A stretch of 64,000 nt of DNA. Source: Endocalyx cinctus. Lineage: Eukaryota; Ascomycota; Sordariomycetes; Amphisphaeriales; Apiosporaceae. Each line of letters starts with the position of its first letter. Position 1 is the first letter of the stretch. Below are positions 38,201 to 63,514 of the stretch, in pieces. Location: NCBI GenBank assembly GCA_001600455.1, contig BCKC01000001.1, positions 5,544,441-5,608,440 of the forward strand, given 5' to 3'. Under the pieces are notes generated by a model that made no database searches, had not been told where the DNA came from, and saw only the letters and a list, made by a program, of their open reading frames with translations. Made by a program: the position numbers and the translations under genes.

Positions 38201-38922
38201 AGGGAGAGTTTGCATGTGAATTGATCGGACCCCCAAAATTGCAGCCTGTCCGGTTATCCAACAGAGCACAGAAAATTATATCCGTAAATAGGATTCTTTA
38301 GTGGCGGTGTTCATGGCACCAATCACGGTCCTCCTATGCATAGTTAGTACTGATAGCTGAATATACCGATTTTTTTATTTCCCGAAAAGGTAGGGGGACG
38401 CATGTCAGGGAACCGCAGTTGTGGATGGCAAATATTGAACAATGGTTTCTTCGAACCTCGCTGAAAAGAATACGAAGGCAAAATCAGATACTTCCCGTAG
38501 GCGTACTACAATCTAATATAAATATCAGATTCCACGAATCTATTAAGGTTTGAACGATATTAAACGCTGTGAAGATCCCGCTCTTGTAGACGTCAAAAAT
38601 AGTGTCAGCTTAATGCTTGTGTTTCTGAAGGATTACGAGTTGAGGGTGCAATGGAAACATCGAAGATCCTATATTAAATTACCCAATGGGCGTATTCCGA
38701 TGTTACAGTGTAAGCATTTAGTTAGATATTGCCCATTGGTACACAACATATAGCAAGTCCGTCGTTCTGTATATCACGTTACGGATCCCATATAAGAAGG
38801 GTCATCCTATGCTGACTGGAAACGACTGCGTCTACGAAATTTGAATTTTCTAGTGAAATGAATTTGACTTCTGTCCTGTGGGCATCCGGCTTACACCCAA
38901 CCGTCTCGTCAACCAGCACATA
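35287..38922. other. Long intergenic region, no firmly supported gene
   Basis: There are 3.6 kb. It includes a (TTC)n run at about 36618-36641, a 27-A run at 37812-37838 and several short frames. Frames at 38056-38301 (81 codons) and 38550-38753 (67 codons), both plus strand, have weakly protein-like composition but no domain and no connecting splice signals I could confirm. They may be remnants of a decayed gene or noise. The frame at 36428-36751 is hydrophobic with a Ser run from the TTC repeat and is probably not coding. Confidence 0.6.
37812..37838. repeat. Poly-A tract, 27 bases
   Basis: An uninterrupted A run in AT-rich intergenic DNA, with no recognisable element attached. Confidence 0.85.
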
Positions 38923-41180
38923 ATGACCCAAGAAGACGTCGGCGTTAACGGTGTCGTCGCCCCGGGACCACCCTCGGGTAGTTCGGGCGAGCGATGCGAG
39001 TTCAAAGCGTACCAAGAAACCGTCGGGGCGGGTGGGTCGCGGGTATCGCTAGAGCCCCTCTCGGACCCATTCGGGCGGCTCCAGATGCACGACGACAACT
39101 TCACCTACGCCTTGGCTATCAAGAGAACCTTCGCGGCTAACAACACTAGCGGAAAACCCAAGAAGACCATCCTCCGGGTAAACTCGCCGCATATTCTCAA
39201 GGCCCTGCAGGAGATAACCCGGCTATACAACCCCGGAACCCACGCCGCTTCTACCATGTCGGACTATAGCTTCGACTCACCTTTCGACATGAGGAACCCC
39301 TTCTGCATCTTGGCGCACTACTGGGACGAGCTGGACGAGTACCGGAAGGCTGCTAACCAAGAATCAGAAGTCCGCAGGCACATGGACTTGCTGTTTCAGT
39401 TTATGCACCGCGAGGTGAAACCCGATCGGGACACCGCTCTGAGACAGATGGGGGCGAAAAACATCGACTTCCGCCACGCGTGGCTGCTCTTCCGGCCCGG
39501 CGACATTCTTTACACCGAGTACGAGCGGCAGCCTTGGCTGCTCCTGTGCAGCGGAGAAGCCGCCACGTACGGCGAGGACCGATCGGGAGGAGGTCCTTAC
39601 CTCGAGGTTCGGGCTACTTACACCGACCACGACGGCTCGGTCCTCGGCGACGCCGAGCATACCGTCAGGATATGGCAGCGGAAAACTTTTCCCGTCGCCG
39701 ACGGACTCGTTCCTATCGTCTCCTTGGACATATACCCGCGACGGTTCGTGCCTAAGGGGGACGCTCTGGAGCGACAGCTCCGGCTTCGCGGTCAGAAATT
39801 CATGTCCTTTCAGGATCGGTCCGTGGTCGCTTACGACGGGTCGGTCGAGTGGTTCCGAGACCCGTCATCATCTTCTCCTTATTCTACAGATTCGCACCAT
39901 CACCACCACAACCACGCTCCTACCTCCTCCCCTCCTCCCACCTGCACCTGCCAAAAGACGAACCACGACGTCTGGCTTCCGCGCGAGGAAAACGTGGGCC
40001 GAGTGATTCTCGACCGCGCCACCTTCGGCTCCGAATACCCGCTCTCGCAGCAAAAAGTCAAGCGGGCGGATCCCCGACCTTGGTTCTGCCCGCCCTTCAC
40101 GGTGGGGTACTCCCTCGGGAGCGGGAGGTGGGGTCGCTTCCTGGTGGACGACGTCTCCGATACGCTCGATTGGAACCCGCGCCCCTGGGAGGCCCTCGTG
40201 CTTCCCCAGAAGGACAAGATGCTGCTGCGCTCGCTGACGACGGCGCACGAGTACGACGACGCGAAGAGAGGCCGCGGCGGCCTCGCGATCTTGCTGCGCG
40301 GCGCGCCGGGGTCGGGAAAGACGTTGACGGCGGTGACGACGGCTGAGGGGGCTCGCTTGCCGCTGTTGCCGACTTCGGTGGGGGAACTTAGTCGGGGTCT
40401 AAAGTAAGTTTATTTCTTCCACTTGTTTCATCATATCCTTTTGATGCTGCCTTGGGTTCAGGGGTCAATACTTCCCAACTTAAAAAAAAAGGGGTAGGAA
40501 GGGGTTAGTGGGAAAATAATTAGCTAACAAAAAAAAAAAAAGTCTACCAACTCCTACTTCTCCATTTGCTGATAACCTGCGAAAAATATTGCGCCTGGCT
40601 ACTACGTGGAAGGCTGTGGTACTCCTGGAAGATGCGGATGTGCTCGTCGAGGGTCGCGCGGAAGGCGACTTTTCAGACCGCGGTACGTTCTTTCCCCCTT
40701 TCTTCTACCTACTAACATAAATATCAAACAAATTAAAAAAAGAAAAAAGAAAGAAAAAAACTAATATTTTCCGTCTTCCCCACAGAAATCTTTCTCCGCG
40801 AACTTGAGGCCTTCAACGGCGTCATTTTCCTCACCGCCAACCGAGCCCAGTCCCTAGACACCGTCGTCAAGTCGCACATGAACCTCTGCCTCAACTACGG
40901 CCGACCGGGACCCGAGGTCCGACGACGGGTTTGGCTCAAGCAGTTACGGGACATCCCGAGAGTGGATTCCCAGATAGATCCCGAGGACGAGAGTTTAGTA
41001 GTTGAGCACTTGGTGCTGACGGAACTCGACGGCAGGGAGATCGCGAACGCGGTCGTGATGGCGCGGACGCTGGCGAGGAGCGAGAGGTCGCCGTTGACGA
41101 TGGCGCATCTGGAGATGGTGCTGGATGTTAGGAAGGAGTTTGAAGAGGGGTTGAATAGGATAAGTTGGAGTCCGTTTTAA
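38923..41180 (+). CDS. AAA ATPase with altered catalytic motifs (DUF7025-AAA architecture)
   Basis: Three exons: 38923-40403, 40543-40682 and 40786-41180, giving 671 residues. Introns are GTAAGT...branch GCTAAC...AAAAAG (phase 2) and GTACGT...CCACAG (phase 1). The start is the ATG at 38923, as the frame closes upstream. The N-terminal half has the 'AWLLFRPGDILYTEYERQPW' and 'FMSFQDRSVVAYDGSVEW' pieces typical of the region before the AAA module in large fungal AAA proteins. Walker A is intact (GAPGSGKT, 460-467). Walker B reads VVLLEDADVLVE (EDAD, 523-526) where the family has DEAD. Sensor 1 (TANR) is present. The arginine expected in the SRV/SRI motif is His571 (VKSHM). ATP may bind, but hydrolysis could be impaired. 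Compare the intact relative at 59,081-61,303. Confidence 0.88.
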
Positions 41181-56612: not shown

Positions 56613-58296
56613 ATGCGCCTCCCTCGACACATATGGATCTGGCTGAGCACACTCAACCTAAGCCAAGCCGTGTACGATTCATCTTCTCAAAACAACGTTG
56701 CCGTTTATTGGGGTGCGCAGTTTATACCACCACTCGTTATATCCAGTATGTAAATTATGGTAAACTGAAAGCTGATAAAATAAACAGGGCAGAACTCGCT
56801 GGGCAGCGCAATCGGCGACCCGGATAGACAGGGACCGCTGCTAGACTACTGTCAGTCGAACGTCTTTTATCGCGATGTATTCAGCTAGGTTCAAAGAGCT
56901 AATTATCATTATTCTTTCTCTTAGGTAAAAAACATGATAGTATCAATGTACGTAAAGAAATAAACGAGTAGGAAAATATAGCTAATCTCGAACCCCGTTG
57001 CTAGATTATTCTCCTAAGCTTCTTGACAGCTCCAGACCCGTCGAATCCAGGAAACCTCAACTTTGCTAACTCTAATGTTGATGCTACGGCGTGAGCTTAT
57101 TCTTCTTCTTCTTTCCTACCTCGCCTTCTCCTGAGTCCTTTGGTATATTCCAAGAAAATAAATAAATGAACACAAGAACCTCCCACTAACGAAAGACACT
57201 TACAAAAAACAGCTGTGCGGTAAAGCAATGTCAAGAACGGTATAATAAAACTATCATGCTCTCTCTAGGCGGCCCTATGGGCAACAGTTGGACTTTCGGT
57301 AGCGTCTCGGCGGCAGAGCGAGCCGCCGAAGATATCTGGAGCGCCTTCGGGCCGACTATTACTCATGGTAAGCACGGAAATAAATCTGCCCCTACTCCCC
57401 GACCTCTAGGTACCGCAGTCGTGGACGGGTTCGATTTCAGCTTCGAATCGCGGTTCTACAACATCACCCCACTCGCCAGCCGACTCCGGTGTCTGATAGA
57501 TGAATACACCTCTTCCCCTCACCGGGGGAACCACAAGAAGTTCTACCTCTCGGCCTCTCCGCAATGCCTGTTTCCCGACGGAAACTTAGACGCGATACTT
57601 AGGCCACCCAAAGGCGAGGTCGAGGTCACGCCCCTCGACTTCGTCCTGGTGCAGTTCTACAACAACGAGCGCTGCGACATACGGACCATGAAGACGTTCA
57701 AATTCCGGCCGTGGAACCACTGGGCCCGCCGTCACGGCGCCAAGGTGCTGATGGGCGTCCCCGGCGGCGTCGGCGCCGTCTCGGCCTCGAACCGCGCCTC
57801 GTACCGGACCGGAAGGGACGTCACCTCGTTCGTCGACGCCGCGAGGAGGTTCGACCGCTTCGCGGGGATCATGATCTGGGATATGTCCTGGCTCGATAAC
57901 AATACGGCGTTCATGGCTCCGGTCGTGAGGGCTTTGAGGGTCGGTCCTAGAACTGCTGGAAGAACGGTAATCCCGCCCGAGGGGAATTCGACTTTCTCCT
58001 CTGCTTCTGAGTCTTCGAGTAAGGCGAATACGCCGCCGGCAGACGCCTCTCTCTCCCCTTCGAAGGGCAAGGTTTTGAGTATAACGAGTACCCCATCCTC
58101 TCAAAGTAGTCTCGTAACTAGCACGGCTGCGCCATCTAGTGATACGATTGTGACCGTGACTAGTACTATTACTATTGCCGTTACGGTGCCTGGAGTTGCG
58201 AGTCCGTTAGCTTCCCCTACAAGTCATCGAAGTAGAACTCATTCTGTTTATTCTCCTGCGTGGGATGTTCTCACGATCCTCCCCATTGAAGATTAG
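56613..58296 (+). CDS. GH18 class III chitinase-like protein with altered catalytic motif
   Basis: Five exons: 56613-56712, 56788-56876, 56925-56947, 57019-57090 and 57213-58296. All phases agree and give 455 residues. The N-terminus MRLPRHIWIWLSTLNLSQAV acts as a signal peptide. Splicing rebuilds the class III chitinase order: VAVYWGQNSLGSAIGDPD, LLDYCQSN, VKNMIVSIFLTAPDPSN, LNFAN, MLSLGGPMGNSWTFG, then VVDGFDFSFES. The catalytic DxxDxDxE here reads D166-G-F-D169-F-S171-F-E173. The general acid Glu is kept, but the preceding Asp is Ser. Later blocks KFYLSASPQCLFPDG, VLVQFYNNERC and GIMIWDMSW are intact. A Ser/Thr-rich tail (about 100 residues) suggests O-glycosylation or wall association. 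It could be a weak enzyme or a chitin-binding lectin. Confidence 0.88.
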
Positions 58297-59080: not shown

Positions 59081-61303
59081 TTAAGATTCATCTCCAAGAG
59101 TGCTGAGTGCCTGAACGCGTTTATCAGCCAACATATAAAGGCGATCCATAGGGACCTTAGCGCCGCTCTTGACAGACAAGAGCTGCGCCGACTTGATAAG
59201 GTTCTTGATCTCGCGACCGTTGAGAGGCAGCTGAGCCAGGTCATCGAAGGAGGAACCGTCGCTCGCGACGTCGAACTTCTCGGCGCCACCGGCGCGATCG
59301 ACGAAGTTAGCCCAGACCTGTCTTCGGGCGTCCGGTAGGAGATCGCGGTACGGGAGGAAGAGGTCGACGCGGGACTGGAAGGCGTGGTCGATGCTGGTGA
59401 TACGGTTGGTGGTGAGGAACAGGATTCCCTGGTAGTACTCGAGCATGCGCAGGAAGATGGAGACGAGCTCGTTGCGGGCGAGCGACTCGCTAGTTCGCAT
59501 CCCGAGGAACACGTCGGCCTCATCCAGCAGGAGCATGGCGTTCCACATGCGGCAGAGCTCCAGGGCGCGCTCGAGCGCCTTCTCCACCATCGGCGGGCTC
59601 GTCCCGAGGTCGCCCGCGCTCATCGAGTACAAGGGCACGCGGGACTTCTCCGCCACGGCTTCGGCCGTGAACGTCTTCCCCACTCCAGGCGGTCCGTACA
59701 TCAGGATGATGAGCCCGCGACCCTTGTCCGGGATGAAGTCGTCGAAACCGCTGTTGGAGATGCTCTTGGCCTCGACGAACTCCCAGGCGAGCTCTTTCTC
59801 GTTTCCGGGAAGGACTAGCTTGGTGAAGGCCTCGTCGTTCCAAGTCATCTCCTGAAGTTGATCCACGCGTAGCTCGCACCAGTCTTTGCTCTTCAGGTCA
59901 AAACCCTTGAGCCAAGGAGTCGTCATGAGGCATTGTTCATCGGTCAAAGGGGAGAGATCCTCAACTCTCTCGGCCGGGCCTTTAGCAGCGGCGATATCCT
60001 CCGTCTCATCGACGACGGCGGCGGAGAACTTGCTATCGTATGCCATATCTACGTCATCCGTCTCGTCAGTAGCAAGGTCAGATTCATTCTCATCTTCATC
60101 CTCGTCTTTGTTTCCTGTCAACGATCGGAGCTTCGGTTTCACTATGTTACAGCTGCGATAGTAGGCGTAGGCGTCAACGCAGACTTTGCCGGCGACGGGA
60201 CGTCGTTCCGGCTTTTCCGTCTCAATAAGAACTTTAGTTCCATTCGAAACCATGAAGTGGTAACCGCGGAGCTTCTCGAATTTACGACCGCGCTCGATCA
60301 TAGACTCTCTAACGGTCGCCTCATCGCTCAGGAAGGAGATGGGAAATACGGGGAGCGCAGTTACTCGACGGTATCCCTCATATTCCCAAATGGTGAGAGA
60401 ACTCGTGGCGTATCCGCTGGTTTCTCCGTTCCAGTCTACATATTCCATATCGATCACCCATCCCTCCGGGTTGTTGCAGCTTGCCGGTTGCTTTCTGTAC
60501 TTGAGGACGCGGCAGACGGTGTCGACGCCGTAAAATTTGGTCATAACGATAGACCCCGGAGGGAAGACCTGCCACACGTTCTCGAAGCTGACCTTACCAG
60601 TAGTTTTGGTCATAGCACGAGATAGCACGGAAGAGGAGATGATCGGGGACAGGAAGCCGAGAAGAACGGAAGCGGCGTTCTTCATGGCTGGGTCTTCAGC
60701 TGTGAGCTGAAATTCCTTAAGAGCATCCCATCGATGAACGAGCGGCATAAAGGGAGGCTCGAAGGTCCAGTTGATTAGACCCAAGTCGAGATCCTGGTAG
60801 TTCTTGAGCACTTCTTCGAGGACGAGTCTCAAGGACTTGTCTTGGATGGTGATACTTTGGGTGACCCAGTGGTTGTTTACAAATCCAAAACGGTGGACGA
60901 TGGGGATTTCCGCAGTACGCTGATCTAGGTCTTCTCTATCGTGATCGACGTTATCGAACTCTGACCAACGGGAAGGGCAACATTTCGACGGGCATCTGTG
61001 ACGATACCAGTTGCTAATGAGCTTGGATGAGTAACCAAGCTTCTCGCTTTGCTCCTCACCGCTGCTCTTCATAGCTATGGGTGTGACACTGACACCTTCC
61101 AGGACTAGAGTATGGTCTATTTTCTTGGAAGTATCATTCTTAGCAGAATCGTTCTGAGGAGTATTGACGCAAGATATATCGACGATTGAATCTCGGGTGG
61201 TACGACGTGCCGCTGAAAGATGTTAATAAGGGTGAATAGAGTTTACATATAATATTGAAACTTGATAAGTTGAGAAGGACTTACTTTGTTTAGTTCGGGC
61301 CAT
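59081..61303 (-). CDS. AAA ATPase (DUF7025-AAA architecture) with a histone H3-like N-terminal tail
   Basis: Two exons, a 19-bp exon 61285-61303 and 59081-61212, give 716 residues. The intron (61213-61284, 72 bp) has GTAAGT, a TTAAC branch-like site and CTTTCAG. The ATG is in strong context (A at -3, G at +4). The N-terminus reads MARTKQTARRTTRDS; the first nine residues equal histone H3. Next come an unconserved linker, a Cys-rich patch (HRCPSKCCPS), the pre-AAA region with ENVWQVFPPGSIVMTKFYG and MVSNGTKVLIETEKPERR, an acidic linker (NKDEDEDENESD) and a full AAA module: Walker A GPPGVGKT (513-520), Walker B LLLDEAD (567-573), sensor TTNR (607-610), arginine-finger-like SRV (Arg621). It should be an active ATPase. 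The frame stays open from the acceptor to the previously obvious Met54, which supports the small first exon. Confidence 0.88.
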
Positions 61304-62398
61304 GATAAGGTATAATAGTTGTAAGAGTAAGTAGATGATATATCAGATATCAATATCAGCGAAGTTGAAGGAAATAAGAGAACTGGTTTAGTAATAACTC
61401 GAGGGAGAAACTTTGTAAATAGAGTAAAGTGTTTATGAGAAAGAAGAATCATTTTGAAATAATTCAGAATATATCATCTATTATATACCCATAGAAAATA
61501 GATATCAACGTCTGTTTAATCAAGGCTGATTGCGGGGATTCCACCTTACAAGGCAACTACCGCCTCTAGCTCTAGGCAACATAGGGGAAGGATTCGGCTT
61601 GCAGAACGATACCCATCCTCATGCGTTTCAACTTTATCTACCCCCGTTTTAGTACTCAATGAAAAATGAAATTGAAAGATAAAGAAAGATCAATGAGTCA
61701 CATAGATAATCCTTCAAACTTCTAGTGTTCATTTAAAAGAAGAAGAAAGGTTAGAGTATAAGAGATATGATTATATAATCTTGGGAGTTATGCTGAAGTT
61801 TTCTTGACTAGCAGAAAATGGCGGGTTCTGATTGGTTGGTTGCCTTGGGTTGCCTTGGGTTGCCTAATCTAGAAGCTATGACCTCTGGCTCCTATCCATA
61901 CTTCACCAAGGTCAACATCATCAATCAATTCCATTCGCACATTTTCAAGACAGTGTACCCCATTTGTTGGAGATACGAAGGTTGGCGCTATCCATCCAGA
62001 TAAGTTGTAATTGACGCCTCTCCTAGTGTAAGGGATGATGGTTTGGTATCGCTATCTCGCTAGACGGCAAGCGGTTGGTGTATATTTGCTCAATACGGCC
62101 GCATGAGTGAGTCACCTCTCGAAGTCGTGATTATAACAACTTTTAACCGCGTTTGAATTGTAGATATTCATAGCTAATTGGAATTTTTCGTCATAGCTAC
62201 GTCGCTCGAGGAGAGAATTGCGAGGGCCTTTCGACTACCCGAACAAGGAAACAGGTAGTAAACCATACACGCATCCAAGTCCATAAATGTCCACTATTCT
62301 CAACTTTCCATACTGACCAATAGGACCACTTATCACCCTTATCAGGAAACACTATGGAAATCGTTTTGATATCAGTTTGCGGGAGAGATTGCATTTCC
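61304..62398. other. Intergenic region
   Basis: About 1.1 kb: promoter of the AAA ATPase gene and 3' flank of the aldo-keto reductase gene. It contains one short tandem repeat, listed separately. No gene is seen. Confidence 0.7.
61838..61865. repeat. 10-bp tandem repeat, 2.8 copies
   Basis: The unit ggttgccttg is repeated head to tail. Confidence 0.93.
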
Positions 62399-63514
62399 TT
62401 ACAATTCACCGACGTCATCGTCTAGGACCGTAGGGTCATCCAAATCCGCAAACAACTTCACACCCCAACCCTTGCCGGGGTTATTCATCCGAGTCCTCTT
62501 GTCTTGATTTGAAATAGACTTCATCTCCTCGTCCGTGTAGGTGATGTTCAGCGCTCCGTAGTTCTCCTCGATATACGCCTCGTGCACGCTCTTCGGAATG
62601 ACGACGGTACCGCGCTGCAGGCCCCAGGCGAGGATCGCTTGCGCCACCGTCGCCTTCTTGGACTCGGCAAGACTTTCCCAAAAGGGGTCTTTCATGATAG
62701 GATCGAGACCTCTGTCGTACTTCGGGTTCGTGTTCCCCAAGGGGGAGTAAGCGATCACTTTCACGCCGATCTCGTCGTGGAAGTCGACGAAGTCCTGCTG
62801 TTGCAGGTACGGGTGAGTCTCGAACTCGTGCGCGTACGGGCAGATCTCGCACGCCTTCATGATCGTCTCGACGTCTTTCTTGGCGAAGTTGGAAATCCCG
62901 ATGTTTCGAGTCAAGTTCGCCCGCACGAGATCCTCCATCACTCGCCAGGTGTCGACGATTGACATCTCCTTGTCGAGTTTGGTCGTGTCCGGGACAAAAG
63001 CGACCGGCCAATGCATGAGATAAAGATCGAGGTAGCCCACACCTAAGTCGTAGATAGATTTTTTGATAGCCGTCATAGCTTCATCGGACCGGTGTTGAGT
63101 GTTCCAGAGTTTGCTCGTGATCCAAATATCTTCTCGAGCCACATTTGCTGCTCCGATACCTTTCCCTACTTGATCTTCGTTCCCTTTAGTCAGAGTTAGC
63201 GAGAATTTTCTCCAAAGAAAAAAAAAACACGAAGGATAAGATTCTTACTGTAGATCCAAGCAGCATCGATATGGTTATAACCTGATTCTAAAGCGAATTC
63301 TGCGGCATGAGCGACCTATTTTAAAGTAATTAGTATTAGGCACACGGTATCTAGAAACCTGTCCTATAAAATTACGTACTTTGTCTCTGTCTGATTGCCA
63401 TGTCCCTAATCCCAAATGTGGTATGTCGTGAACATTAGAAGAGGGTATTTCCGTTTGTCGCAGCGCCGAGACAAACCCCACAACTGTGATTAACCATGTT
63501 GTAAAAGAACTCAT
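62399..63514 (-). CDS. Aldo-keto reductase with secretion-like N-terminus
   Basis: Three exons: 63380-63514, 63249-63315 and 62399-63183. Introns are 64 bp (GTACGT...AATAG, phase 0) and 65 bp (GTAAGA...branch GCTAAC...AAAG, phase 1), giving 328 residues. The AKR barrel is complete: HLGLGTWQSDRDKV, catalytic Asp62 and Tyr67 (HIDAAWIYRNED), Lys92 (ITSKLWN), His125 (DLYLMHWP), then NIGISNFAKKD, KVIAYSPLG and the NADPH-binding VIPKSV. Unlike most family members, which are cytosolic, it starts MSSFTTWLITVVGFVSALRQ. That is a short polar start, a hydrophobic stretch and a small-residue end, which looks like a signal peptide or signal anchor before the barrel. The substrate is unknown; polyols, aldoses and secondary-metabolite ketones are all possible. 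Confidence 0.9.

Follow-up and report, generated by a model that had tools for sequence, protein, structure and literature searches.

A putative histone H3-tail mimic at the N-terminus of a fungal DUF7025-AAA ATPase

A gene of the ascomycete Endocalyx cinctus encodes an AAA+ ATPase whose predicted N-terminus reproduces that of histone H3. The gene resides on the minus strand of a stretch of 64,000 nucleotides (nt) of contig BCKC01000001.1 (positions 5,544,441 to 5,608,440), which is called the window here, and in whose coordinates positions are given. The spliced product measures 716 amino acids, starts with MARTKQTARRTTRDS, and by its domain matches is a member, with a single AAA domain, of the fungal DUF7025-AAA family. 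An N-terminal mimic is taken here to carry at least 4 H3 residues directly after Met1, in a motif kept beyond its surroundings in orthologues. The ATPase carries 8 out of 8, and orthologues keep the motif beyond its surroundings, with many losses. On balance, the tail is probably an ancient mimic of that of H3, of the N-terminal/Lys4 type, which would dock the ATPase on a complex reading H3 tails.

Gene structure and comparison with the histone H3 gene

Exon 1 (61303-61285, minus strand, as all parts of the gene) measures 19 nt, ATGGCCCGAACTAAACAAA, and encodes MARTKQ, from the ATG at 61303; its last base opens the codon of Thr6. In H3 numbering, its residues are A1-R2-T3-K4-Q5-T6. The phase-1 intron which follows (61284-61213) measures 72 nt, and is bordered by a GTAAGT donor starting at 61284 and a CTTTCAG acceptor ending at 61213. 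Exon 2 (61212-59081) encodes the rest of the ATPase, stop included. Its start (61196..61212) completes the H3-like tail with Thr6-Ala7-Arg8, and adds Arg9-Thr10-Thr11; a linker, including a conserved LVLEGVSVTPIA element identified by orthologue alignment, spans 61073..61195. Exon, donor, intron, acceptor, spliced H3-like start and frame running into the ATPase had all been claimed in the initial annotation, and were found as claimed when the sequence was read again. The span assigned there to the feature started at 61198, a position inside exon 2 which corresponds to no feature boundary.

The frame of exon 2 can be read without a stop from 61222 onwards, and its first ATG is the Met codon at 61072. 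The protein read from this frame, denoted P0001, lacks MARTKQ and includes the tail only from Ala7; Met 61072 is its residue 51. The stretch 5' of Met 61072 holds LVLEGVSVTPIA, which aligns with the conserved element of the orthologues. Since no ATG precedes 61072 in this conserved stretch, an upstream exon is needed, and a start at 61072, listed in the initial annotation as the alternative that would remove the H3 likeness, is unlikely. Upstream exons were searched in 1.5 kb, as segments running from an ATG to a GT[AG]NG donor within 600 nt, and joined by one in-frame intron to the exon-2 acceptor. Six candidates were identified. The MARTKQT exon is the only one requiring an intron shorter than 1 kb (72 nt). 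The other five need introns of 1056-1251 nt, and start in or beside an aldo-keto reductase gene. Judged from the sequence, the ATPase should start upstream, and in the cell exon 1 would be joined to exon 2 by splicing.

The true H3 gene of the genome is located at C4:2468320 (contig 4), and reads ATGGCTCGCACTAAGCAGACTGCCCGTAAG. The nine residues MARTKQTAR are identical in ATPase and H3, Thr11 is also common, and position 9 is R in the former, K in the latter. The match described in the initial annotation (nine identical residues, then R/K, T/S and T/T) is borne out. Of the eight codons found after the ATG, six differ between the two genes, all synonymously; the likeness to H3 therefore resides in the peptide, not in the DNA. 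The 5' coding part of the H3 gene is uninterrupted at codon 6, and the intron of the ATPase gene, which was to be compared in position with one in H3, has no counterpart there. A recent capture of the H3 promoter or first exon is unsupported, because the H3 gene has no intron at this codon. Plus-strand blastn comparison of 61001-63000 with the 3-kb H3 locus retrieved chance words only (best 16 nt, E 0.29), and a genome search with exon 1 and its upstream sequence (711 bases) found no second copy.

The degenerate pattern ATGGCNCGNACNAARCARA has two matches in the 44.76-Mb genome, in the ATPase gene and the true H3 gene, and none when reversed as a control. The shorter pattern ATGGCNCGNACNAAR is uninformative, with 12 matches versus 10 in the control. 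Assuming uniform codons, the chance of finding eight given residues after Met is p ~2e-10, or ~2e-6 over an assumed 12,000 genes. No close paralogue carrying the tail was seen in the same genome, the H3-like exon pattern being confined to the ATPase gene and H3. The best other genomic match to P0001 by E-value shows 45% identity over residues 424-693, and the highest identity among the genomic matches listed is 56%, over 119 residues.

Distribution and conservation of the tail

A homologue search of the protein collection found 173 proteins; the best 120 are listed, and the N-termini of all 120 were compared. An alignment-based search found 161, and no new identifier was among the 120 listed. 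A first tree was built, with the N-terminal part excluded, on 85 rows, corresponding to the window protein and 84 of the 120 listed homologues (identifiers up to P0090, at least 585 amino acids long). The ATPase is placed inside a clade of 56 proteins, set apart from the 29 others with 100% support. Support for the clade was 100/100 in a second tree of 61 rows, in which clade rows P0040, P0056, P0072 and P0077, and 20 of the 29 outgroup rows, were left out. In both trees the window ATPase is grouped with Camillea/Biscogniauxia rows and a Xylaria-type group. The Leotiomycetes rows P0003 and P0010, plus P0032, are nested among the Sordariomycetes of the clade instead of standing next to them, again in both trees, which may reflect gene transfer or an old duplication.

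MARTKQTAR starts were found in 6 of the 56 clade proteins, and MARTK starts in 9, versus none of the 29 outgroup proteins in either case; MART and MAR open 11 and 12 clade proteins, respectively. Exact MARTKQTAR tails reside in rows of Xylariales, Amphisphaeriales and Helotiales, variants with 8 of the 9 residues in Hypocreales and Helotiales. Rows starting with MARTK are named as Xylariales, Amphisphaeriales, Hypocreales, Chaetosphaeriales and Helotiales. N-termini read MARTKQTARRSK in Xylariales sp. AK1849, MARTKQTARGGV in Xylariales sp. PMI_506 (for both, the order is as named by their source), MARTKQTARRTT in Apiospora arundinis, MARTKQTARKRT in Microdochium trichocladiopsis, MARTKATARTRK in Thelonectria olida, MARTKQIARKVN in Oculimacula yallundae, and MARTKNDH in Thozetella. 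The Bisporella protein, starting with MARTKQTARKST, matches H3 at 12 of 12 positions, Met included (11 of 11 after Met). Bisporella and Oculimacula belong to the Leotiomycetes; Apiospora, Microdochium, Thelonectria and Thozetella represent four orders of Sordariomycetes.

Conservation was measured in 34 clade rows with a Met start and 50 or more residues N-terminal to the core. The remaining 22 of the 56 were left out, as they fell short of this length, had no recognised core motif or did not start with Met; P0012 (MMART) was used without its initial M. The commonest residues at positions 1 to 8 are A, R, T, K, Q, T, A and R (in 14, 19, 18, 12, 11, 11, 13 and 11 rows, respectively), and the consensus departs from H3 at positions 9-13, 13 being the last examined. 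At least 6 of the 8 H3 residues are matched in 8 rows, versus a mean of 0.0 and a maximum of 0 in 2000 within-protein shuffles, and at least 4 in 12 rows, versus a mean of 0.036 and a maximum of 2, figures which overstate the evidence, as the 34 rows are related and not independent. In the nine MARTK rows (36 pairs), identity measures 86% at residues 1-9, 17% at residues 10-12, 31% in the linker and 74% in the core; the choice of rows fixes positions 1-5, and QTAR, which was not selected for, is exact in 6 of the 9. The K9 position is unconserved, being R in the ATPase described here and K in 5 of the 34 rows, and the A-R-K-S/T sequence found around K9 is not kept. The idea of an H3K4-type mimic put forward in the initial annotation fits these data, as the family consensus ends where the N-terminal/K4 determinant ends.

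Several observations weigh against a mimic conserved in the family. Splice sites of the orthologues are those of database gene models. In 22 of the 34 rows, fewer than 4 of the 8 positions match H3. Full-length orthologues devoid of H3 similarity, which the initial annotation would have counted against its proposal, are thus in part found; some of the 22 may be wrong gene models, not demonstrably all. P0004, the nearest row by tree path, starts with MPRKAVDQD. In the window's subgroup (15 rows in the second tree), the tail is found only in the window protein, with a remnant in P0012 (MMARTSRRG), and the 11-row Xylaria-type group shows no tail. The fewest tree changes equal the number of carrier rows (9 for MARTK, 17 for a loose form), and parsimony hence offers no evidence for a single gain. 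Starts such as MARTSR, MGRTQQ, MPRTRP and MPRSVQ look, by their sequences, like real erosion.

Truncated sister models starting at an internal Met (P0017, P0024, P0028, P0032) contribute to the parsimony result, and models differ between close sisters (P0008 and P0053; P0013 and P0017). These cases indicate that prediction of the small first exon is one cause of missing tails. In most of the window's subgroup, the absence of the tail may be due to erosion, mis-annotation, or both. One gain with losses is preferred to several gains, because three multi-row subgroups of the second tree contain exact or 8-of-9 tails and the only other one a MARTS start (P0005), and because a repeated origin of eight exact residues is improbable. 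The mimic proposed in the initial annotation holds at the level of sequence, in orthologues of two fungal classes, and is missing in many others.

Domains, proposed docking and alternative explanations

The DUF7025 domain (PF22942; 60329..60610, residues 205-298 of P0001) is matched with 87.3 bits, versus a curated cut-off of 27, and is found in 30 of the 30 members of homologue alignment A1. An SH3-like barrel is predicted inside it. The AAA core (PF00004; 59360..59707, residues 506-621) is matched with 66.6 bits, and features Walker A GPPGVGKT at 510 and Walker B MLLLDEAD at 563 (P0001 numbering). DUF7025 and AAA are the only families found in the protein by Pfam up to E 0.1; no histone family was among them. 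The core is predicted to adopt a fold like that of p97 D1, by a structural comparison which bears almost wholly on residues 457-711. Identity to p97/Cdc48 D1 and other AAA+ unfoldases is ~21%, the ATPase has one AAA domain, and the N domain of p97 is replaced by DUF7025 and the H3-like tail. Residues 1-25 of P0001 have AlphaFold2 confidence (pLDDT) values <50, in a model covering the tail only from Ala7, and disorder is therefore predicted beside the tail. The linker after the tail is highly variable; most of the nine MARTK rows have an acidic one, and that of the ATPase described here is only mildly acidic.

The origin and use of the tail may be envisaged as follows. An ancestor of the DUF7025-AAA ATPase would have gained an N-terminal extension copying H3 residues 1-8. 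Removal of Met1 by methionine aminopeptidase would expose A-R-T-K-Q-T-A-R on a flexible, usually acidic tether, and six tails would be displayed together if the protein forms an AAA+ hexamer. In the nucleus, where the protein would be expected to reside, tails could enter pockets made for a free H3 N-terminus, such as those of a PHD finger, the BIR domain of a survivin/Bir1 homologue, LSD1, or a COMPASS/WD40 groove, and Lys4 could be methylated. The motor would thus be brought to chromatin complexes, and might remodel them or displace them from H3. As for possible readers, PHD domains are matched at 16 places of the genome, and BIR domains in two adjacent stretches which may belong to one gene. 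LSD1 deserves attention as a candidate, because some orthologues have SNAG-like MPRS or MPRT starts. To be set against docking, Ala-starting N-termini are often acetylated by NatA, and this would block several readers.

The tail could also be a conserved short linear motif with some other job, as a nuclear localisation signal, an N-degron or N-terminal acetylation signal, or a phosphorylation site, its likeness to H3 being convergent and no H3 reader binding it. This is rather unlikely. The basic residues R2, K4, R8, and often R9, could form a weak nuclear signal, some rows start with MPR, and the best-kept positions are R2 (19 of 34), T3 (18) and A1 (14), K4 being kept less (12). A generic basic motif, however, would predict neither eight ordered residues identical to H3, with a sharp end at position 9, nor the complete match over 12 residues in Bisporella.

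In a variant of docking, which is unlikely in this elaborate form, the ATPase would be a soluble multivalent decoy found in a lineage of filamentous ascomycetes: a dedicated motor ring bearing several H3 N-termini, which strips, remodels or titrates readers of H3K4 or of the H3 N-terminus off chromatin. Its Tudor-like DUF7025 barrel would possibly restrain the tails until engagement of the motor, and methylation of the tail by COMPASS could tie recruitment to H3K4 methylation. The tail might instead be the ligand of its own DUF7025 barrel, in cis or between subunits of the ring, as an autoinhibitory pseudo-histone, DUF7025 being a Tudor-like histone reader. We hold this for quite unlikely; as predicted structures go, DUF7025 as a reader barrel of the Royal family (Tudor/chromo) is a weak lead.

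An inert relic, in which the start codon came long ago from an H3 5' end that was fused or duplicated, and the peptide has decayed passively since, would account for a match lost or blurred in many orthologues, and found in none of the 29 outgroup rows. It is very unlikely, given that residues 1-8 are exact in six rows of two classes, whereas the adjacent linker is only 31% alike, that codons have diverged synonymously from those of H3, and that the H3 gene of the genome lacks the codon-6 intron. That chance or a faulty gene model produced the tail is scarcely credible: the first exon is admittedly just 19 nt long, but the same start is present in gene models from other genomes, the pattern occurs in the genome only at the ATPase and H3 genes, and an upstream exon is needed anyway.

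Known H3-like tails and neighbouring genes

To our knowledge, few N-terminal mimics of H3 are encoded by host genomes, and their match is usually limited to a few residues. The match of PAF15 to H3 is shorter than that of the ATPase. SNAG proteins are transcription factors having MPRS-like letters at the N-terminus, in a sequence not identical to H3. The E. cinctus H3 is a first term of comparison: the ATPase shares with it MARTKQTAR and Thr11, and differs in having no histone domain found, R in place of K9, an intron, and other codons.

The N-terminal tail of Sgo1 (A-K-E-R) is bound by the BIR domain of Survivin, the free Ala N-terminus entering the H3-tail pocket (PMC9253516). Sgo1 and the ATPase are both non-histone proteins; Sgo1 is a vertebrate centromere protein with a loose four-residue likeness to H3 and measured binding, whereas the ATPase is known from its sequence. 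The H3-like N-terminus of PAF15 binds the PHD of UHRF1 with a dissociation constant of 2.2 uM, versus 1.5 uM for H3 (PMC7060239). PAF15, also a non-histone protein, is PCNA-associated and, in contrast to the ATPase, has no AAA+ motor. The SNAG domain of Snail/Gfi1 factors is an H3-mimicking hook which recruits LSD1, an H3K4 enzyme (PMC12612597, PMC8080763); the MPRS and MPRT starts mentioned above resemble it in form. G9a/GLP carry a host-encoded histone mimic which is methylated and read (PMC9768651). The latter is internal, of the H3K9 type and read by HP1, whereas the ATPase tail is N-terminal and of the K4 type, with K9 not kept.

N-terminal H3-like tails are thus already known in Sgo1, PAF15 and SNAG proteins. 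No H3-like tail in a fungal AAA ATPase was found among the matches listed from the open PubMed Central (PMC) literature, outside which most subscription journals fall, and the word DUF7025 was absent from the open PMC literature searched. Eight H3-identical residues after Met, extended to 11 of 11 in Bisporella, are placed here in an ATP-driven machine. A natural non-histone protein which should compete with H3-tail readers, or recruit them, would be a ready tool, and offers a test of whether H3K4-modifying enzymes act on a protein outside the nucleosome. Docking would also provide a functional lead for the DUF7025-AAA family.

DUF7025 has 24 match places in the whole E. cinctus genome. One of them, in the window, belongs to a second DUF7025 gene (38857-41180, plus strand; 61.8 bits). 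The P-loop of this gene reads GAPGSGKT, and another AAA piece lies downstream; the frame listed for it shows no H3-like start. Outside the clade, P0071, P0082, P0083 and P0087, three of which are named Achaetomium, Chaetomium and Chaetomidium, share a conserved acidic start, MA[IV][IV]T[AG][ST]PPDS[DE]TEVIV[AS]V[DN]E, which we take to resemble a SUMO-interacting motif. N-terminal docking motifs may be exchanged within the ATPase family.

The aldo/keto reductase frame (62399-63244, minus strand; 125.1 bits) is the upstream neighbour of the ATPase gene, on the same strand. A frame similar to glycosyl hydrolase family 18, chitinase-like, is found at 57190-58296 on the plus strand, at 26.7 bits, slightly below the Pfam cut-off of 29.6; its C-terminal part is rich in Ser and Thr.
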